Source of the DNA: Aquella oligotrophica
GTDB lineage: Bacteria > Pseudomonadota > Gammaproteobacteria > Burkholderiales > UBA11063
Direction of reading: 5' to 3'
NCBI RefSeq assembly: GCF_002892535.1
Contig: NZ_CP024847.1
Location: 1,984,001-2,048,000, forward strand
DNA: 64,000 nucleotides
Made by a program: the position numbers and the translations under genes. Position 1 is the stretch's first letter, and the number at the start of each line of letters is the position of its first letter. Positions 11,555-54,681 of the stretch are shown here, in pieces. The notes under the pieces are model-generated. The model did no database searches. It worked only from the letters and a program-made list of their open reading frames with translations, and was not told where the DNA came from.

Positions 11555-12295
11555 TTAGATATTATTGACCATCTCAGGAATATTTAATGCAGGCAATCTT
11601 AAATCATTTTCCGAGCTATTAATAATTAATTCAATCAGCTCAGTTATTGATGAACAGTTGTACTTTTGATAAAGTTTAGTCAAGAAGTATTTTATTTGCC
11701 GATCGCTATATTCTTTACTAGTAAGATTTTGCAGTATATAAGCAATTTCCTTACGCTGATGAAAGCCCATGAGTAAACAGGCAATAATTTGATGCTGCTC
11801 TTCCGAAAGCTCTTCTTTAAATACCACATCAACTTTATCCTGCCGTCCTGACATTACCCGGTGAATTATATTACTATGTTGAGCAAGATTCAATAGTGCA
11901 GCTGAAATAAATATCCCAACACAGTTATTTGTTCCTGGATTTATTATTGGTCTTTTCCGTATATAATATAATCTTATTTCATTACCCTGCTTAATCTGAT
12001 ATACAGACTCATGAAATACCTTTTCCTGAATAATTTTACATTCAGACTCTTCGATCTTTAATGCCAGATTACTATTATTATAAATACTAAATCTACGTCC
12101 CAAAATTTCACTGCCACAATTAAAAATTTCAGAAAATTGATTTGAAATACCTAAATATTCAAGCCTAGTATTCACTACTGCCGCAATTTCATTATAAAAA
12201 ATATGTTTTAGTAGCCATAACTGATTTAATAAATATTCCTCATCGGAAAGAAAGTCATTATTTTGTGGCAAATCATAATCTTCATGTATCAACAT
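11555..12295 (-). CDS. PAS-like/LuxR-type HTH regulator, single-module paralog A
   Basis: The 246-residue protein is one of five related proteins here. Residues ~25-135 resemble a small sensor domain of PAS type (EIAAVVNTRLEYLGISNQFSEIF, then IRKRPIINPGTNNCVGIFIS). Residues ~155-225 form a LuxR-like helix-turn-helix: LSEEQHQIIACLLMGFHQRKEIA, then SDRQIKYFLTKLYQKYNCSSITELIELI. Compared with canonical LuxR domains there is an insertion of several residues between the scanning and recognition helices. The start codon overlaps the end of paralog B by 14 bases, so both are translated from one message. The ligand and targets are unknown. Confidence 0.65.
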   Translation of the reverse strand: MLIHEDYDLPQNNDFLSDEEYLLNQLWLLKHIFYNEIAAVVNTRLEYLGISNQFSEIFNCGSEILGRRFSIYNNSNLALKIEESECKIIQEKVFHESVYQIKQGNEIRLYYIRKRPIINPGTNNCVGIFISAALLNLAQHSNIIHRVMSGRQDKVDVVFKEELSEEQHQIIACLLMGFHQRKEIAYILQNLTSKEYSDRQIKYFLTKLYQKYNCSSITELIELIINSSENDLRLPALNIPEMVNNI

Positions 12296-13046
12296 ATTTA
12301 TTACTCGATAGGATAGTTACCAGAAGCAAATACATCCGGGGGAGTTCAAGATTAATCATATCATTTGAAATTAAGGTTAATAATTGGCTAATACTGCTAC
12401 AGTGAAATTTTTGATATAATGCATTTAAGCCATTTTTTACTTTGATTTCATTTATTTTTTCTTTAGTAACATTGCTAAGCATGGCAGAAATTTCTTTTCT
12501 AGAATGAAAACCGAGTAACAAGGCAAATATTATCTGTTGCTCACTGTTAGTTAATTTTTGCTCTTTAGTAGCTAAGTATGAACTTTTATTGGGTACAAAT
12601 AGCTTAAGATAGGATTTTCGCAATATGCCAGGCTTGAACTTTCCGGCAACAATTAGAAGTCCAACTACATTATTATTAGATGGATTTATCAGTTGCCGCT
12701 TCCGAATCCCACAGTATTCCGTTTTCTCATTTTTTTGGTAAAAGCAAATTGAATCCTGACATGGATATTTTTCAAGGATGTCCTGCTCTTGTTGCAAAAT
12801 AGCCAACTCGGTATCAATATCAGTTAAATTATTGACAATTTTTTTACCAAGAGCATTCTTATCTAAATTAAATTCATAGGCATATTCATCAGACATTGCA
12901 ATATATTCAAGAGCAGAATTTTTTACTGCAATCATTTCCCCTCTAAAAAGATAGCTGACATTCTTTATAGTATAACGCAAAAACTCCCGATCTGTCATTA
13001 GAGGAAATGAATCTATCTGTTTTCGCAATAATTCTAAAACATGCAT
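12282..13046 (-). CDS. PAS-like/LuxR-type HTH regulator, single-module paralog B
   Basis: The 254-residue protein has the same plan as paralog A. A sensor half contains AVKNSALEYIAMSDEYAYEF and IRKRQLINPSNNNVVGLLIV. A C-terminal HTH reads LTNSEQQIIFALLLGFHSRKEIS, then IKVKNGLNALYQKFHCSSISQLLTLI. The shared (I)RKR-INP and FHxRKEI strings show a direct duplication with paralog A. It is first in the two-gene transcript, 16 bases after the ndh stop, so it could also be read through from ndh. Function is inferred only from the HTH. Confidence 0.65.
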   Translation of the reverse strand: MHVLELLRKQIDSFPLMTDREFLRYTIKNVSYLFRGEMIAVKNSALEYIAMSDEYAYEFNLDKNALGKKIVNNLTDIDTELAILQQEQDILEKYPCQDSICFYQKNEKTEYCGIRKRQLINPSNNNVVGLLIVAGKFKPGILRKSYLKLFVPNKSSYLATKEQKLTNSEQQIIFALLLGFHSRKEISAMLSNVTKEKINEIKVKNGLNALYQKFHCSSISQLLTLISNDMINLELPRMYLLLVTILSSNKYVDT

Positions 13047-23692: not shown

Positions 23693-24412
23693 TTATACTT
23701 TACTCATTGGAAACATGAATTCGCCAAATAATGAAAGTGGTACGCTCTTATGGTAGCCATTTTTATGTCCTGCAGCCATTAAGGATTCCAGATTAACAAC
23801 ATCAAATTTGACATACAAATTTCTACTTACAATCTTGGCTACCATTGAACTAGTAACGTTTATTCCATGACTTAAACTTAATAAATCTGCCACCTGCTGA
23901 TAATTATCACAATAGAATAATAAAAATAGCACCTCATGTTCACGATTGGTCAAGAATTTATCATTTCTTACCCTTGTAGCTGGACGTTCTTCAGAGCTAT
24001 TGCGAATAATCTCTTTAATCCCATAAAACTGTAACGGATGATCCGGAATTTCACCCGTAACCTTAAATCCAAAAATATTATCTGTCTCATAGTTTATTAA
24101 TGGCTGAAAATTAATCACAATTAGCCAATATAAAGGATCACGAGAAAATTTTAAAGAAAGCCATTTACTATTACTTCTCTTGGTTCGACAAGATTCAAGA
24201 ATGTTCCTGAATTTCTCTGTACGCCATTCTTCATTATTAAGTGTTAGTAAACTTTTACCAATGTATGTTCCATCATTAATATTTGCCAACTTTGCAGAGA
24301 ATCTATCCTCGCTAACAATCTCATAAGCTAAATTAGTGATAAGAGTATGATTATTATCATAAATACTATTATTATATTTTATGGCAAGTTCAAGTGCTTC
24401 AGTATCATTCAT
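23693..24412 (-). CDS. PAS-like/LuxR-type HTH regulator, single-module paralog C
   Basis: The 239-residue protein belongs to the same family as the regulators at 11,555-13,046 and 49,311-52,591. The N-terminal ~135 residues look like a PAS-type sensor (NLAYEIVSEDRFSAKLANI, then FGFKVTGEIP). The HTH begins LTNREHEVLFLLFYCDNYQQVA and, after a longer than usual turn (SLSHGINVTSS), has MVAKIVSRNLYVKFDVVNLE. It is divergent from the 869-residue lipoprotein gene; the shared intergenic region holds two imperfect direct repeats. Control of that gene is inference. Confidence 0.65.
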   Translation of the reverse strand: MNDTEALELAIKYNNSIYDNNHTLITNLAYEIVSEDRFSAKLANINDGTYIGKSLLTLNNEEWRTEKFRNILESCRTKRSNSKWLSLKFSRDPLYWLIVINFQPLINYETDNIFGFKVTGEIPDHPLQFYGIKEIIRNSSEERPATRVRNDKFLTNREHEVLFLLFYCDNYQQVADLLSLSHGINVTSSMVAKIVSRNLYVKFDVVNLESLMAAGHKNGYHKSVPLSLFGEFMFPMSKV

Positions 24413-45097: not shown

Positions 45098-47320
45098 TCA
45101 AGGTTGAATGGTGGTTTTTGTTTCATTAAAAAATAATGTCCACATATCTACATAGTATTGACTTAAAAGATTATGTCCTGCTCCAAAGTACGAACGTAAT
45201 AGATATGGATTATCTCCTATAGCCGTATTTTGCATGGTTGCTGCAAATTTATAACTATGTAATGGTGGCACACGCCCATCTTCCGTACCAGTTTGAACTA
45301 GCATCGTAGGATAAGCAATATGCTGAACATTTTGCAATGGAGAAAAGGTCATCAGGTTATAAAATTGCTCAAGATTTGTACTATAGCCATAATCTGGATA
45401 CCAGCCAAACCCCACTGTAAATAGCTGGTAGCGTAATAGATCAAGAACACCTACCGCAGGAAACACCACTTTAAATAAATCTGGATTCTGTAGAGCAGTC
45501 GCTGCCGTTGTAAGACCACCATTAGAAGCTCCAGATAAAGCCAGTTTTGCTGGATTAGTATAACCATTATCAATCAGGTAATTAGCTACTGCCGCTACAT
45601 CATTATAGGTATTCTGCTTATTTAGCATCCTACCGGCATTATACCAAGCAGTACCATATTCTCCTCCACCACGTACCTGAGCGACAACATAAATCCCACC
45701 ATTTTTCATTAATAATGTGGCATTTTGATTAAACTCTGGCAAAGTTGATGCGTCAAATCCACCATAAACATAGATAAGAGTAGGATTATTTCCATTTAAC
45801 TGTAATCCTTTCTTATATCCAATAAAGATTGAAACTTGTACTCCATCCGTAGACGGGACAAACAACTCTTTCATCTCATAGTCAGCCGGATTAAAATCAG
45901 GAATACTAGCCGTTCCCTGCCCTACTCCCTCTTCCTGAGTTGCGGGATCATAAGAATATAACTCATTAGGAGTAACCAGATTTGAATACATATATGTTAA
46001 AACATTATTCTTGTCACAAGCAGGCTTATACTGCCCCTCAGATGCCAAAGCACCTAAACCAGGAAACCCATCAATTTCTACAGGATTTGAAGCTGGTATC
46101 GTCTTATCATAACGATACAGTTTGCTTGCGCCATTTACCAAAATTTCTACATAATAGTAATTTCCACAACTAGTCATAGAATTAGCAATAACGCTTTCTG
46201 GATTGGGTGGCACAACATTAACCCAATTAGATGAGTCTGGAGTATTTGGATTAACAATAACCCAACGTTTCTGTACCGCCCCCTGATTTGTTTTAACAAA
46301 AAAAGTTCCATCTGAACTTTCGTTAACGATATCAAAAGAAGCAGGGATATCTCCACTAAGAAATATTTTTGCGGAATTATTCAGATTAGATGGGTTGAAG
46401 CTGTAAATCCGATTACTCCCATTGGCATAACCAGTAGAAAAATAAAGCATATCATTATACAATTGCGGTTCTAGGTTAACTGTCCCAATCTCTGAACCAG
46501 CTTCAAAAATTGTTACTGGACGGGTATTAATCTGATAATAATAAATTGTTTGGGAATTATAGCTTGAAGTATAAATATCGGTTACTTCCTGTGGCTGAAC
46601 ATAAAAGAAACCACTCTCATAAGTTGTGAACATACCATAAATATTATTAATTGTCTTTATTATAGCATTATTATTTAAATTATCCAGTACCGTAATAGTG
46701 CCCAAATCAAGATTTGTATCCTGAGTTTTGATTATTGTATAAATAATGCTTTCTTGACTATTTTTAATAACATCAAACTGCTGTACTGATACTGATCCTT
46801 TTAGAATACCAGTCTTATTTAAATCAAGGAAAACTTTACCATTCTGATTTCTGTCATCTGCCACATAAATTATATTATCAGTTGAAATCTTGTTATTTAT
46901 TCCATTGTTGAACTCCGGAATAGTATTATCAACTTCACGAACATTCATATAATAATATTTATCACCAACTCTGACAAAATCTTTTTGTACATCAGATTTT
47001 AAAGATTTACTACCTTGAGATAATGCTGCTAAACTACCAGCTACAATATTATATTCAGGCAAATTATGAATATAATTATCGGTAAAAACATTCTGCTGAT
47101 TTACCCACGCTAGAGTCTCAGGGCTATTAGTACTTTCCATCCATTGATACGGATCCGCAATTGTAGTTCCAAAATAAGTATTACTCACGTTAGTATATTG
47201 ACTTGCTGGATAATCAAACTTTTCACTAGTACCACTATTACTACCTCCAGAAGAACCATTACTGCAAGCAATTAAACTTGTCACAGACAATATACTAATT
47301 AAAATTTTCTTTACATACAT
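45098..47320 (-). CDS. Lipoprotein prolyl oligopeptidase (S9A family)
   Basis: The 740-residue protein has a lipobox signal (SILSVTSLIAC) and a Gly/Ser linker. The N-terminal beta-propeller region starts with YFGTTIADPYQWMES and the C-terminal alpha/beta hydrolase domain carries the triad: Ser599 in SGASNGG, Asp681 in GTEDGRV and His716 in GAGHN. S9A enzymes cut short peptides after proline. Most are soluble and cytosolic or periplasmic; a lipid-anchored form suggests peptide processing at the outer membrane. It heads no operon; a DUF4156-like gene lies upstream on the same strand. Confidence 0.9.
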   Translation of the reverse strand: MYVKKILISILSVTSLIACSNGSSGGSNSGTSEKFDYPASQYTNVSNTYFGTTIADPYQWMESTNSPETLAWVNQQNVFTDNYIHNLPEYNIVAGSLAALSQGSKSLKSDVQKDFVRVGDKYYYMNVREVDNTIPEFNNGINNKISTDNIIYVADDRNQNGKVFLDLNKTGILKGSVSVQQFDVIKNSQESIIYTIIKTQDTNLDLGTITVLDNLNNNAIIKTINNIYGMFTTYESGFFYVQPQEVTDIYTSSYNSQTIYYYQINTRPVTIFEAGSEIGTVNLEPQLYNDMLYFSTGYANGSNRIYSFNPSNLNNSAKIFLSGDIPASFDIVNESSDGTFFVKTNQGAVQKRWVIVNPNTPDSSNWVNVVPPNPESVIANSMTSCGNYYYVEILVNGASKLYRYDKTIPASNPVEIDGFPGLGALASEGQYKPACDKNNVLTYMYSNLVTPNELYSYDPATQEEGVGQGTASIPDFNPADYEMKELFVPSTDGVQVSIFIGYKKGLQLNGNNPTLIYVYGGFDASTLPEFNQNATLLMKNGGIYVVAQVRGGGEYGTAWYNAGRMLNKQNTYNDVAAVANYLIDNGYTNPAKLALSGASNGGLTTAATALQNPDLFKVVFPAVGVLDLLRYQLFTVGFGWYPDYGYSTNLEQFYNLMTFSPLQNVQHIAYPTMLVQTGTEDGRVPPLHSYKFAATMQNTAIGDNPYLLRSYFGAGHNLLSQYYVDMWTLFFNETKTTIQP

Positions 47321-47882: not shown

Positions 47883-49073
47883 CTATTTACCAGTTCCTGA
47901 TGCACAGGCATAATTACTGCCCAGATTAGCACAACCAGTTGCTTGTGTATCTTGAGTTAGAACTGTGTTAATCCACGAGTTAAATTGACGCACATCAGCT
48001 GACCAGTCCATTCCCACTATACCACACCCTATAGGACCCCAAGAATGTACTCCAACCAAATTCCAATTGGTACCATCCCAAGCAAAATCTCCACCACCAG
48101 AATCACCTGGGCAAATTAATGAATACACTTTATTATTTTGAAACCATCCGTTCATAATGGTAGTTTCAGCTTCCTTATTTGTTGCAAAGTATTGATAGTT
48201 TATGTAATTTAGATTAGTATTTTCTGGGTTAGCAGGTGTACCATTATTAGGGTTTGTGCCCCCATAACCTAATGCAAGCAATCTAGTACTGCTTTCTATC
48301 ATGCTAAAATTTGATGGTGCCAATTTTAAATTTGGGGCAATATCTACGGTTTTACCGGTCTGAGCCTGGACTTTTAATATAGCAAAATCACCATTCCAAG
48401 ACCTTACGGATGTATTACAATCATATGTGCCACCATCATTTTTGGTATATGCTGCTTGCTGGCAATACTGACTAGGAACATAAACGGCTAAAATTTGGGC
48501 TGTTAAATTGGTAGGTTGCAAAGGGCCAGCATTAGTTCCCTGATATATCCAAGCATCATTATGCCCAAAGTCGTCTACTACATAGGTACCAATATTTGCA
48601 GCAGTAGTTGGTGCTCCAGCTGCTTTTGGTGTTGTGGTACCAATAACACAATGTGCTGCTGTAACAATAAAAGTTACCCCGGTTGTTGGGTTATACTGAA
48701 TTGGTGTACCAGTGCAATTATTATAAAACCCAGATTCTGGATATTTCGTGTTCTTTGATTTATATGTCTCCAAGGCTACTGCCATCTTTTGTAAATCCGT
48801 AGATTGTGGAGCTGAGGCAACTGAGCAATTACCAGCATAAGCAATTTTTAAAGAATTGGCAACTGAACTTGCTGTTGGTAAATTAGATGGCAAGCATTGG
48901 TAACTAGCCGGAATCGCCTGGGCTGATGGACCAGGACTCGGAGCTGGTGTCGGAGATGGTGTCGGAGTTGGGGTAGGTGCTGGACTTGGGCTACTACTAC
49001 CACTATTACACGCTGCTACAGTTAAGCCTACACTACTTAGTAGTGCTAATTGAAGTAATTTTTTATTCATCAT
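47883..49073 (-). CDS. Lipoprotein trypsin-like serine protease
   Basis: The 396-residue protein has a lipobox (TVAAC, Cys22), then a long Pro/Ser/Thr linker (SPSPAPTPTPTPSPTPAPSP) to about residue 50. The protease domain has His141 in TAAHC, Asp229 in NGDFAILKV and Ser325 in CPGDSGGGDF, the S1 triad in order, with extra cysteines for disulfides. The linker would hold it away from the outer membrane. Its substrate is unknown; with the adjacent oligopeptidase it could form a surface proteolysis pair. Confidence 0.88.
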   Translation of the reverse strand: MMNKKLLQLALLSSVGLTVAACNSGSSSPSPAPTPTPTPSPTPAPSPGPSAQAIPASYQCLPSNLPTASSVANSLKIAYAGNCSVASAPQSTDLQKMAVALETYKSKNTKYPESGFYNNCTGTPIQYNPTTGVTFIVTAAHCVIGTTTPKAAGAPTTAANIGTYVVDDFGHNDAWIYQGTNAGPLQPTNLTAQILAVYVPSQYCQQAAYTKNDGGTYDCNTSVRSWNGDFAILKVQAQTGKTVDIAPNLKLAPSNFSMIESSTRLLALGYGGTNPNNGTPANPENTNLNYINYQYFATNKEAETTIMNGWFQNNKVYSLICPGDSGGGDFAWDGTNWNLVGVHSWGPIGCGIVGMDWSADVRQFNSWINTVLTQDTQATGCANLGSNYACASGTGK

Positions 49074-49243: not shown

Positions 49244-49278
49244 AATAAGCCCCCATAGTTTTTAGGGGGCTTATTTGT
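49244..49278. terminator. Strong hairpin between the serine protease and the double-module regulator
   Basis: AATAAGCCCCC (49244-49254) pairs with GGGGGCTTATT (49265-49275) over ATAGTTTTTA. It most likely ends the minus-strand regulator transcript, although the U-tract lies within the stem end. Confidence 0.7.
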
Positions 49279-49310: not shown

Positions 49311-50804
49311 TTAACATATCCACTTATGAATATCTGTATTTACTAATTTACACACTTGATGCTTAAGTATTGAATGAGGTATAAGTGCATAGCCGATAAC
49401 AAGCGCAATATCGATTAGTTGGCTCTTATTTGTTACGTTAAACATAGTTTTTAATGTTTCAAGGTGCTCATTAATTGTATGTGGTGAAATAGGATAACCA
49501 AGTTCAGTTAAAATTGTAGCTACTTTGCTATAAGAGTAATTACGGGCATAAAAAAACAATACCTGATGTTGTCGATTGGTAACTCGCATATGCTCTGGCA
49601 AGCTAATTTTAGGCATTGGAAATATATTAAAAACCTCAATCATTAGTCTATGTACTGTTGGCATAACATATTTACGAATCTGTATATGCACATAAGAACC
49701 TAGAAGTTGCATTTGTAGTAGATAAATTTTCCCACTTATTTGTACATCCAGAAAAATATTTGGTTCACTGCCACTTAACCTTGGATGATTCTGTATAATT
49801 ATTTCTTGCAAGTTAGTAAAATTTCTAGATAGTTCATTAACCATTTTTATAGTAACCAATAAAACTTTGCCATCTTTATTAAATAAGCCAGCCATTTCAC
49901 TACTGCTAGTATAGAAGCTTTGAAATAGCTTTGATTCTAAACTTTCATTTAATCGCTGATCATCGAAAATAACAACCTCAGAGCTAAGTGAGATTAATTC
50001 GTTAGGCAAATATTTATAGCCAATATTTATATCAGATAACAATAATGGGTAATCATTTTGTCCTTTTATTTCGGTAAGATGGTTCTCAATACAATATGCC
50101 CCATTAGGTAAGAATCCAGCTGGCATTTCTGAATGATAACCATATTGTATGGCTAGTGTTCGTAGGTCATTGCTATTTTTAGCACCAAATATATTCTTTA
50201 AAGTAGTTAAATGCTCCGTAACCCGAGCAGATGACATTTGAAGTCCAAAAGCACTCATCCAGCCAGAAATCTCACTGTATGAATAATTACGTAGAAAGAG
50301 GAATAGCACCATACGCTGCTTGGGTGTTAATTTATATTTAACTGTATTTAAAGGTCTGGAATATAGATCTAGTTCGTGGGTATAATAAATAATATCCTCT
50401 AACCGAGGTAACCCAAAAGGACGTAAATAAACATGGAAAACCGTAATGCCACCGCAAAGAATACGTGGTGATTTATGAACAATATACATCTTGGATATTT
50501 GTTCATAATCCAATATATCAAGGGTAATGTAAACTTTATTCTCACGGCTAGCTTCTTGAAACTGCTTTTCAAGAACGGCGTGATTTTTTGAATACCATTC
50601 GAGACTTGGAACTTTACATTTATAAAAAGGTTTTCCCAAAACTTCTTTTTCTGATTTAATTAAAAACTCATCTAGAAATTTTTGGCTAACGGCAAGAATA
50701 GTATAGTTACTATCACATACATATGCAACTGAATATAGATTATCACTAATTAACTTGAAAGCAGCTAAATAATCATTTATTCTTAAATTAGTATCACCCC
50801 GCAT
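49311..50804 (-). CDS. Double-module PAS-like/LuxR-HTH regulator, copy 1
   Basis: The 497-residue protein contains two copies of a sensor plus HTH unit. Module 1 has a PAS-like half (SVAYVCDSNYTILAVSQKFL) and an HTH at about 159-222 (LTPKQRMVLFLFLRNYSYSE, then RVTEHLTTLKNIFGAKNSND). Module 2 has a diverged sensor and an HTH at about 409-472 (VTNRQHQVLFFYARNYSYSK, then TINEHLETLKTMFNVTNKSQ). Both HTHs carry the family's longer turn (MSAFGLQMSS, LTELGYPISP). It ends DIHKWIC, a tail shared with its divergent partner. Two DNA-binding units in one chain is unusual. Confidence 0.7.
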   Translation of the reverse strand: MRGDTNLRINDYLAAFKLISDNLYSVAYVCDSNYTILAVSQKFLDEFLIKSEKEVLGKPFYKCKVPSLEWYSKNHAVLEKQFQEASRENKVYITLDILDYEQISKMYIVHKSPRILCGGITVFHVYLRPFGLPRLEDIIYYTHELDLYSRPLNTVKYKLTPKQRMVLFLFLRNYSYSEISGWMSAFGLQMSSARVTEHLTTLKNIFGAKNSNDLRTLAIQYGYHSEMPAGFLPNGAYCIENHLTEIKGQNDYPLLLSDINIGYKYLPNELISLSSEVVIFDDQRLNESLESKLFQSFYTSSSEMAGLFNKDGKVLLVTIKMVNELSRNFTNLQEIIIQNHPRLSGSEPNIFLDVQISGKIYLLQMQLLGSYVHIQIRKYVMPTVHRLMIEVFNIFPMPKISLPEHMRVTNRQHQVLFFYARNYSYSKVATILTELGYPISPHTINEHLETLKTMFNVTNKSQLIDIALVIGYALIPHSILKHQVCKLVNTDIHKWIC

Positions 50805-51094
50805 CTTAATCCTATTGTATTAATTACTCCTCTATTATATTTAAGTATATCCTATTCTGCTTTAAGCATTTTAGCTAAAACAACCATCAATAAATTAATT
50901 TATTAAAGCTATACAATATGATAAATACAAACCATGAAACAATACCAGTAACTACAACCCCTATAGTTTTTAGGGGGGTTAATGTTGTAAATTCATTAAA
51001 TTATTTATTAGACATTGAGAAAAGCCTTTTATAAAGACTATTGGTATGTTACAATAAATTTTCAACCAGCTAAATAGATTTTGTAGGTAAATTA
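50805..51094. promoter_or_regulatory. Divergent intergenic region between the two double-module regulators
   Basis: About 290 bases with the start regions of both genes. A hairpin, ACAACCCCTATAG then TTTT then TAGGGGGGTT, lies at about 50953-50981, with a loop sequence (ATAGTTTTTAGGGGG) almost the same as in the terminator at 49244-49278. It lies about 115 bases upstream of the plus-strand start, possibly within a leader. Confidence 0.5.
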
Positions 51095-52591
51095 ATGTCA
51101 TATAACGCTATTAATGATTATTTGGAAAGCTTCAAATTCACTACCAAAACACAAGACATAATAGCTTATGTTACTAACCGACATCATCAACCATTAGCGC
51201 TAAGCCCTAAATTTAAAGAAGTATTTAATATTGCAGAAATTGAAGAAACCTTATTTTTCTCTACACAAAAGACAGACAAAAATTCAAGTCCTTTCTTTTA
51301 TAGATTCCAAAAAACTCTCATTGAACAAGAACAGCAAGTTTTAAATAATAAGCTTCATCACATTTTTTTGCAAGTAATTAACCAAACTACATCATCAAAA
51401 TTATATATTGTTCATAAATTCCCAATAATTATAGACTCTGTCGTACAAGCAATTTACACATGTATGCTACCTTATGGTTTCCCACGTATACCGGATCTTA
51501 CTTTTATAACATTTAATACTAATCACTATGCACGACCACTTACGTCAGAGTATAAACTTACAGAAAAGCAGCACCTTATACTATTTTTTCTGATTCGGAA
51601 TCATTCGTATGCCGAAATATCTTCGTGGATGAGCGCATTTGGACACACAATTTCTGTAGCAAGAGTTAATGAACACATTATAAATCTTAAACAGATATTT
51701 AACGTAGATACTAGGGTAGAATTGATCGATAAAGCTTTAGAAAAAGGATATTATTCAGAAGTTCCATTAGGATTATTGCAAGAAGGAAGCTATTTAATTG
51801 ATGATTTTCTATTTAAACTAAAGGTAGTCCAAGATTATTCTATACCAGTAGCAACACCAGAATACATAAAGCCAACCACACCTGAAAGAAATCGAATTCT
51901 TTATCTACAAGAAGCTAAATTAATAACTCAAGATATTAGCAATCATATAGATAAGATCAGTCAATTTTACTTCCATTTAGATACCCCTGTTTATTTTTTC
52001 GATGATAAGAAAACATTAATTGCACAAACAGAATACTGCATGAGTCTGGGACTAGATTTCCATGAGAGTAAGTTCTTGCAAGAAATCATCTCAGTACCTA
52101 CCGAAACCAATAATAGTAAGTATCTTCAAGTTATCCAAGTTAATAAAGCTGTAAAAATTTTCATCGTTTATAAAGATACCATTATTAATGAATTCAAAGA
52201 AATTATTGGTTATTCGATCCGCATATCTCCATATATCATGCCATCAATTCCATTAATAATGGAGAAAGTATTTAACGTAGTAAAATTACCTTATAGTTCA
52301 GTCCCTGAAGAAATAATTTTTACTAAAAAACAACTTTTTGTAATCTATTTCTACATCAGGAATTTTTGGAATCAAAGAATTAGTCAGATACTTAGTGAAA
52401 TTGGCTTTAAAATGACTTCAGGTAGAGTAAATGAGCATCTTGCTAATATAAAATCAAAACTCAAGATCAATGCCAAAAATCAGCTTTTAGACCGAGCTAT
52501 TGCGATGAATCATCACTTTATTCCTAGAGAGCTAATTAAAACAGGTCTCTTTAATATTAATGATACCGAAATTGATAAATGGATTTGCTAG
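51095..52591 (+). CDS. Double-module PAS-like/LuxR-HTH regulator, copy 2
   Basis: The 498-residue protein is a clear paralog of the divergent gene, with the same order of parts: sensor (DIIAYVTNRHHQPLALSPKF), HTH1 (LTEKQHLILFFLIRNHSYAE, RVNEHIINLKQIFNVDTRVE), sensor 2 (PVYFFDDKKTLIAQTEYCMS), HTH2 (FTKKQLFVIYFYIRNFWNQR, RVNEHLANIKSKLKINAKNQ), and the closing DKWIC. HTH2 is more diverged than HTH1. The divergent layout suggests mutual or joint control. No kinase, receiver or known ligand domain is seen. Confidence 0.7.
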   Translation: MSYNAINDYLESFKFTTKTQDIIAYVTNRHHQPLALSPKFKEVFNIAEIEETLFFSTQKTDKNSSPFFYRFQKTLIEQEQQVLNNKLHHIFLQVINQTTSSKLYIVHKFPIIIDSVVQAIYTCMLPYGFPRIPDLTFITFNTNHYARPLTSEYKLTEKQHLILFFLIRNHSYAEISSWMSAFGHTISVARVNEHIINLKQIFNVDTRVELIDKALEKGYYSEVPLGLLQEGSYLIDDFLFKLKVVQDYSIPVATPEYIKPTTPERNRILYLQEAKLITQDISNHIDKISQFYFHLDTPVYFFDDKKTLIAQTEYCMSLGLDFHESKFLQEIISVPTETNNSKYLQVIQVNKAVKIFIVYKDTIINEFKEIIGYSIRISPYIMPSIPLIMEKVFNVVKLPYSSVPEEIIFTKKQLFVIYFYIRNFWNQRISQILSEIGFKMTSGRVNEHLANIKSKLKINAKNQLLDRAIAMNHHFIPRELIKTGLFNINDTEIDKWIC

Positions 52592-54141: not shown

Positions 54142-54150
54142 CAATTTTCC

Positions 54151-54681
54151 TTAAAAACTATAGGGGGTTTCTTCAACATTAAGATTCTTAGCAGTAAATC
54201 TAGCTAAAACAAATAGATAATCTGACAAGCGATTCAAATATATCTGCTGACTAGGCTCAATACTCTCAAACTGAAAAGCAGTAACAAGCTTACGCTCAAG
54301 CCGCCTACAAATACTTCGGGCAATATGAATTTGCGAAATTATCGGATGTCCAAATAGATAGATAAAGCTACTCAATGGTGGTAACTCAAGATCCATCTTA
54401 TCAATAAAAGACTCAAGCTGATTTATATTTTCTGTCAGATTAAGGGTTTCATAACCTTTTGCCTTAGCAATCGACGCATTAAGCCTAAATAAGGTATTAA
54501 TAATTTCGCTAATCTGATTTTTGCTATTCTTATCCTCAACTAGATCATGAACTAACCCAAGGTAGCTACTTAATTCATCACTATCGCCAAGCACATCAAT
54601 GAGGATATCCGCTTTACTGACTCTAGTACCATTATAAAGACTAGTTTCACCAGTATCACCAGTTTTGGTATATATTTTCAT
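54151..54681 (-). CDS. pduO: Cob(I)alamin adenosyltransferase, PduO type
   Basis: The 176-residue enzyme adds the adenosyl group of ATP to cobalamin. It begins IYTKTGDTGETSLYNGTRVSK, the PduO ATP site, and has ARSICRRLERKLV and LNRLSDYLFVLARF. It sits in the purine operon with 3-6 base gaps on both sides (purT upstream, purH downstream), which is an odd position, as no other B12 gene is in the window. Confidence 0.93.
   Translation of the reverse strand: MKIYTKTGDTGETSLYNGTRVSKADILIDVLGDSDELSSYLGLVHDLVEDKNSKNQISEIINTLFRLNASIAKAKGYETLNLTENINQLESFIDKMDLELPPLSSFIYLFGHPIISQIHIARSICRRLERKLVTAFQFESIEPSQQIYLNRLSDYLFVLARFTAKNLNVEETPYSF

Follow-up and report, generated by a model that had tools for sequence, protein, structure and literature searches.

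Two divergent genes of Aquella oligotrophica encode VqmA-like regulators with two PAS and LuxR-type modules in one chain

Genes A and B and the modules of their products

Regulators of the LuxR type typically work as dimers of chains that carry a single helix-turn-helix (HTH) each. This report describes two neighbouring genes, A and B, of the tap-water bacterium Aquella oligotrophica whose products hold two PAS-like sensors and two LuxR-type HTHs in one chain. They lie in a stretch of 64,000 nucleotides (the window; positions 1,984,001 to 2,048,000 of NZ_CP024847.1) that is part of one contig of 2,820,660 bases (genome G000). The repeated module is of a known kind, the VqmA-like PAS-LuxR regulator, and VqmA, the Vibrio quorum-sensing receptor for 3,5-dimethylpyrazin-2-ol (DPO), is its closest relative with a solved structure. 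The genes were delimited by an open reading frame (ORF) list, a profile hidden Markov model (HMM) and AlphaFold2 (AF2), and the domains by AF2:

49311 to 50804, minus strand: gene A, double PAS-HTH regulator of 497 amino acids (aa)
50415 to 50792, minus strand: PAS-like sensor 1 of A, residues 5-130, equivalent of VqmA Lys101 kept
50145 to 50324, minus strand: HTH 1 of A, helices 161-171, 176-185, 192-206 and 211-220
49632 to 49940, minus strand: PAS-like sensor 2 of A, residues about 289-391, Met at the VqmA Lys101 position
49392 to 49577, minus strand: HTH 2 of A, helices 410-419, 425-434, 441-454 and 460-471
51095 to 52591, plus strand: gene B, double PAS-HTH regulator of 498 aa
51107 to 51475, plus strand: PAS-like sensor 1 of B, residues 5-127
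51563 to 51742, plus strand: HTH 1 of B, helices 157-167, 172-181, 188-201 and 207-216
51929 to 52270, plus strand: PAS-like sensor 2 of B, residues 279-392
52325 to 52510, plus strand: HTH 2 of B, helices 411-420, 426-435, 442-455 and 461-472

The two genes diverge from an intergenic gap of 290 bases (50805-51094), and their products, 32% identical in an alignment that runs end to end, finish in closely similar tails (...NTDIHKWIC in A and ...DTEIDKWIC in B). Both the divergent arrangement across some 290 bases and the common tail had been pointed out in an original prediction made from the letters of the window, and both stand.

The HMM, made from 42 single-module relatives with double-module proteins (doubles) excluded, finds two modules in A (independent E-values 6.6e-49 and 1.2e-30) and two in B (4.6e-48 and 1.3e-31). 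This singles-only HMM matches each of the five known doubles twice, the C half of the double of genome G005 being broken into two pieces, one of them insignificant; in 1000 shuffled controls, 200 per double, the best E-value is 0.2. Searches with Pfam and NCBIfam return only sub-threshold GerE-like or HTH matches for the two proteins (Pfam GerE 21.3 bits, E 2e-4, in A and 18.2 bits, E 2e-3, in B, with a gathering score of 23.5; PAS_4 very weak and in A only, E 0.11), which therefore appear orphan by family search.

The AF2 models of A (mean predicted local distance difference test, pLDDT, 82.7; predicted template modelling score, pTM, 0.82) and of B (pLDDT 84.7, pTM 0.86) each consist of a PAS domain followed by an HTH, twice. 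All four HTHs have the four helices at the C-terminus of the module that characterize the LuxR/GerE superfamily, and the block pLDDT of both HTHs is 82-97 in either protein. Lower values occur around the second PAS of A (block means of 59-88, and below 50 in the preceding residues 253-275). Each model was built on 32 sequences, the alignment of A holding the same 32 proteins as that of B in another order. The HMM, with two modules in each protein, and AF2, with both HTHs in both, bear out the claim of two sensor plus LuxR-HTH modules per chain. The opposite view, in which the second HTH-like region is no HTH, is rejected on the HMM, on the confident AF2 models and on the substitution rates of B given below.

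A VqmA-like family with a tandem branch

In a Foldseek comparison with the Protein Data Bank (PDB), VqmA chains take ranks 1-8 for the models of both A and B, and EL222 appears at ranks 15 and 9 (TMt 0.35-0.37). Four distinct VqmA sequences also stand on top for the singles profile (E 3e-28 to 1e-24), the best of them aligned over positions 13-241 of 253 (E 3e-28). The view of A and B as an undescribed regulator architecture therefore has to be divided. The profile search comes near to placing the module in a characterized family, since VqmA sequences top it, while no description of the double form was found in the open-access literature searched. The VqmA-like module itself is known; the novelty lies in the joining of two such modules in a single chain, a form that selection has kept and that has a possible operator.

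A profile search of genome G000 gives 61 matches at E-values up to 1e-3; once the second halves of the three doubles and the second piece of one split gene are discounted, these amount to 57 genes, three of which are doubles (A, B and a third double). ORF calling on the stretches around the matches yields 58 ORFs, the split pair included. The architecture of A and B is a tandem fusion within this 57-member paralogous family. The presence of 57 VqmA-like genes in a genome of 2.82 Mb (e.g., those at loci L027-L037) represents a large expansion, for which no study was found in the literature searched; the main text of the Aquella species paper (PMC6612550) does not mention LuxR, quorum, acyl-homoserine, transcription or regulator. 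Three more single-module members lie inside the window (11558-12295, 12285-13046 and 23696-24412, all on the minus strand).

How many genomes hold the double form, a count proposed with the original prediction, can be stated for the genus: of 23 genomes, several of them incomplete, 3 have full-length doubles, with three in G000, one in G019 (92% identical to B) and one in G005 (47%). Among 399 genomes sampled from the order, nine match at E 1e-8, all from this genus (13 genus genomes are listed), and none of the 386 genomes outside it matched at that threshold among the three candidates at most that were scored per genome. At the level of the class, the singles profile has matches at 1e-3 in at least 161 of 369 genomes, and many of the listed matches cover the PAS part only; with seven candidates at most scored per genome in the class sample, and three in the order sample, counts outside the genus are lower bounds. 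Nine loci were found in named genome records, all in metagenome bins labelled Burkholderiales, Neisseriales or Neisseriaceae, and none of 207 pattern matches in a viral collection was confirmed as a relative.

The history of the fusion was examined in a tree built from 76 singles and both halves of the five doubles, 86 modules in total (here and in the residue and turn counts, family members of at least 200 aa are considered). The C modules of the five doubles are monophyletic with support 100, and their N modules form one clade with support 67. Both halves show the same branching, in which a B type (G000, G019, G005) is separated from a type formed by A and the third double. Because the N and C trees agree, one old fusion followed by gene duplication accounts for the tree. 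In G019 two singles stand head to tail in one frame with two stop codons between them (L038:5145-6671), an arrangement that could give rise to such a fusion.

Between B and its G019 ortholog, the ratio of nonsynonymous to synonymous substitution rates (dN/dS) is 0.04 for HTH1 (residues 151-220), 0.03 for HTH2 (residues 406-475), 0.40 for PAS1, 0.20 for PAS2 and 0.21 overall. On this comparison of one pair of sequences both HTHs of B are under strong purifying selection while the sensors drift, and the recognition helices are alike in the two halves.

The elongated turn between the two DNA-reading helices, to which the original prediction had drawn attention, is present in every double module: the corresponding stretch of the profile has 20 residues in each of the 10 modules (five doubles), versus 15 in the canonical form, so that the second helix and the recognition helix are five residues further apart. 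It is not peculiar to the doubles, however. In a separate alignment of the G000 singles the turn is 4 to 6 residues longer in 34 of 53 and short in the remaining 19, and among six outside proteins five have the canonical 15 residues and one (L048) has 21. The long turn is a trait of a large part of the Aquella family and no mark of the doubles, and its standing as a special feature of the latter is rejected. The L048 protein (genome G248, from another family of the class) is a single-module relative (E 1e-49).

A candidate operator and its possible targets

The features outside the coding regions of A and B, together with the gene next to A, are:

50958 to 50976, A/B divergent gap: candidate operator CCCCTA-N7-TAGGGG with 6-bp arms, sequence CCCCTATAGTTTTTAGGGG
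49244 to 49275, gap between the protease gene and A: candidate operator, AATAAGCCCCC, 10 bases, GGGGGCTTATT, located where A would have a terminator
54148 to 54166, minus strand: third copy of the motif, with 1 or 2 mismatches by pattern, which may be coincidence
51028 to 51055, plus strand: TTTATA-16-TACAAT, a possible promoter of B, in which TG precedes the second hexamer
47883 to 49073, minus strand: predicted lipoprotein with a trypsin domain, adjoining A, a likely target, with the motif 177 bp upstream

The copy between the protease gene and A has the core of the A/B gap copy within a perfect 11-bp dyad (a repeat finder for arms of at least 8 bp reports this dyad only, the other copy being too short). 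In G000 the pattern CCCCNATAGNTTTTAGGG is found at three places with 0-1 mismatches (49250, 50958 and 54149 of the window), all less than 2 kb from A or B. Two more places appear at two mismatches: one precedes a lipoprotein gene at about 680.4 kb by 172 bp, and the other lies 504 bp upstream of the lipoprotein gene adjoining the third double, at about 2340 kb; the reversed pattern has no match in G000 with up to two mismatches. A general search for CCCC-N7..13-GGGG gives 31 matches per strand versus 21 in the control, so that G/C-rich dyads by themselves say little. In G019 an exact copy lies in the gap that separates the B ortholog from a divergently oriented lipoprotein gene, at a distance of 180 bp from the lipoprotein gene; a further copy, with one mismatch, lies before purH, which is on a different contig from the B ortholog. 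The third copy of the window covers the stop codon of the gene that precedes purH (176 aa) and reaches as far as the purH ribosome-binding site; it may be due to chance or reflect control of purH by the doubles. The link between doubles and palindrome is a lead, based on the copies with 0-1 mismatches at the B loci of two genomes. Promoter-like sites are in no excess in the region that contains the possible promoter of B (10, with a shuffle mean of 12.2).

Besides A, the third double and the doubles of G019 and G005 each adjoin predicted lipoproteins. More generally, lipoproteins with a Ser/Gly/Asn-rich start make up 20 of the 94 distinct immediate neighbours of the family versus 23 of 387 background ORFs (odds ratio 4.3, Fisher p 2e-5), where the background consists of twenty 20-kb stretches hand-picked at roughly even steps, a few including family genes, and lipoproteins were called with a simple regular expression, not a trained predictor, on crude ORFs of at least 80 aa. 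Counted by family member, 23 of the 58 ORFs have such a lipoprotein as immediate neighbour and 35 do not. Two genes beyond the trypsin-domain lipoprotein lies the gene of a prolyl oligopeptidase (45098-47320) whose start resembles that of a lipoprotein. Two lipoproteins elsewhere in the genome (L027:5306-7411 and L031:1349-4147), each adjoining a family member, share the same long N-terminus (MKNLTTKTFVHGRSRRIQ...ACGGGSGGCC). Type IV pilin-like genes occur near some family members (L030, L036, L037); the automatic neighbour test finds them for 2 of 58.

On these computed results (double architecture, homology to VqmA, fusion history, selection on the HTHs of B, lipoprotein neighbourhood and positions of the motif) we give an even chance to the proposal that A and B are natural pseudo-dimers, each chain uniting what would be two VqmA-like regulators, and that they autoregulate and control neighbouring surface lipoprotein or hydrolase genes. 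Within this proposal the geometry of the pseudo-dimer, the binding of the motif, the sensing of ligands and the direction of regulation are inferences. Two PAS plus LuxR-HTH modules, each corresponding to one VqmA subunit, would have been fused in tandem once, and the fusion would have been kept through gene duplication and speciation. With both HTHs on one chain, a two-armed site could be read without dimerising; each PAS might sense a small molecule, and the ligands of the two sensors may differ. The likely site would be CCCCTA-N7-TAGGGG, the palindrome that occurs both in the A/B gap and before the adjacent lipoprotein protease, and in response to an intracellular ligand A and B would regulate their own genes and those of surface lipoproteins or hydrolases. 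That fused HTHs could replace dimerisation is plausible because the HTH domain of VqmA is an inactive monomer by itself but works again once a fusion to glutathione S-transferase dimerises it (PMC8284805). A broader version of this proposal is tentative and on balance doubtful: a genus-wide battery of private VqmA-like receptors, many of them beside a surface lipoprotein of their own which they control, with one branch turned into obligate single-chain pseudo-dimers that bring two separate sensor inputs to one palindrome (CCCCTA-N7-TAGGGG) as a two-input logic gate.

The persistence of a natural fusion through duplications and speciation would demonstrate that dimerisation can be hard-wired, and would allow each half to evolve a sensor and a half-site reader of its own. 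The 57 VqmA-like genes may supply small-molecule receptors in large number, and the palindrome offers a concrete target for a binding test.

Several results weigh against the pseudo-dimer proposal or soften its support. In the AF2 alignment of B the singles fall nearly all on the N half, and the C half is supported by the rows of the five doubles; the support for monophyly of the N modules is just 67; and the dN/dS values come from a single ortholog pair, for B only. As for the motif, seven other genomes searched with up to two mismatches give 6 matches to it and 11 to the reversed pattern (motif/reversed 2/2 in G019, 0/2 in G014, 0/2 in G022, 1/3 in G016 and 2/2 in G009); because the reversed pattern equals or exceeds the motif in these five of the seven, copies with two mismatches are at chance level in the relatives and may be due to chance. 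With three mismatches G000 has 8 places (10 rows) for the motif versus 7 for the control. No copy lies near the double of G005, whose single genome match is inside a gene elsewhere; the purH copy coincides in part with the conserved end of a coding region; and the palindrome at 49250 sits where the terminator of A is expected.

These results bear most on an alternative that is quite possible, though its chance is short of even, namely that the palindrome is another element (a terminator, some other hairpin or the operator of another regulator) and that A and B bind elsewhere. Terminator-like stems are indeed flagged at both window sites (3 found, shuffle mean 1.0), and a terminator of A is plausible at 49250; the missing copy at the G005 double, the purH copy that coincides with a gene end and a ribosome site, and the reversed controls point the same way. 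However, the flanking genes diverge in both the A/B gap and its G019 counterpart, which leaves no upstream transcript to terminate. The spacer of the palindrome is as conserved as its arms, and all copies of G000 with 0-1 mismatches cluster around A and B, which also speaks for an operator of the doubles.

The original prediction had offered two roles for a chain with two HTHs, an intramolecular dimer and a bridge between two sites. The former is the best reading. The latter is a live rival, although an unlikely one: doubles would be subunits of a homodimer with four HTHs that bridges two operators, such as those at 49250 and 50958 (1.7 kb apart), and loops the DNA. Dimerisation is common among PAS domains, and gene A has a near-perfect site on either side, with a third copy beyond B. 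The PAS domain of VqmA itself dimerises (PMC8284805). On the other side, the B locus of G019 has one site only, and the high single-chain pTM suggests a defined placement of both modules, as if those of one chain were already packed together.

It is improbable that A and B are DPO quorum-sensing receptors and true functional equivalents of VqmA. We take the DPO pocket of VqmA to be formed by Phe67, Phe99 and Lys101 (numbering checked against the sequence of 6ugl). The Lys101 equivalent is present in three of the four modules (both N modules and the C module of B), whereas the C module of A has Met in its place; the positions of Phe67 and Phe99 hold Leu and Val in both N modules, while in the C modules they hold Ile and Leu for A, Phe and Val for B, so that in the N modules the Lys alone of the full pocket is conserved. 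The Tdh enzyme, which is required for DPO (PMC8284805), has an above-cut-off match in G000 (489 bits, cut-off 458; in a control search 13 of 14 named genomes match, 2 of them over the cut-off), and VqmA is the nearest solved structure, but 57 diverged paralogs argue for many ligands, or for none in common. A and B are VqmA-like and, judged by these residues, a role as DPO receptors is not expected despite the tdh match. Least probable of all is a protein that works as an ordinary single-HTH regulator with one degenerate, purely structural module: the second PAS of A has low-pLDDT stretches and has lost the conserved Lys, but the HTH blocks are confidently modelled throughout, the recognition helices are similar in both halves and the dN/dS of each HTH of B is very low.

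Comparison with VqmA and other two-domain regulators

The closest known system to the pseudo-dimers proposed here is VqmA of Vibrio cholerae and of vibriophage VP882 (PDB 6ide, 6ugl, 6kju and 7dwm), which has a PAS domain and a LuxR-type HTH in the same order as each module of A and B, matches the singles profile over nearly its full length, is the best structural match of both proteins and shares with their N modules a Lys-x-Pro at the position of Lys101. Its PAS domain binds DPO, and its sites, GG-N6-CC or GG-N9-CC, have G/C arms like the candidate motif (PMC8284805). The differences are that VqmA has one module per chain and forms a PAS-mediated dimer whereas A and B have two modules per chain, that its HTH turn is canonical and theirs elongated, that its Phe67 and Phe99 are replaced in their N modules, and that the arms of the candidate motif run CCCC...GGGG, the reverse order of GG...CC.

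EL222 and other PAS/LOV-LuxR one-component regulators, including the Streptomyces PAS-LuxR proteins, also combine a sensor and a LuxR HTH in one chain, but they have a single module, and their whole-chain structural similarity to A and B is low (the TMt values given above). The single-module paralogs of Aquella and the PAS-LuxR proteins elsewhere in the class are homologs of the modules by profile; they are mostly about 220-290 aa long, versus the double length of A and B, part of them have the short turn where A and B have the long one, and the single-module form is likely to be the ancestral state. Curated models of PedR, SdiA, VisN and MctR were discarded as relatives, being matched weakly by 1 or 2 of the 42 singles (best E 2e-5). 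The acyl-homoserine lactone (AHL) receptors of the LuxR type carry an AHL-binding domain at the N-terminus; A and B have no autoinducer-binding domain among their Pfam matches, and VqmA, not these receptors, tops the fold search. Two HTHs on one chain that act on one site are found in AraC-family monomers such as MarA and Rob; their fold is unrelated to that of A and B, and they have no sensor for each HTH.

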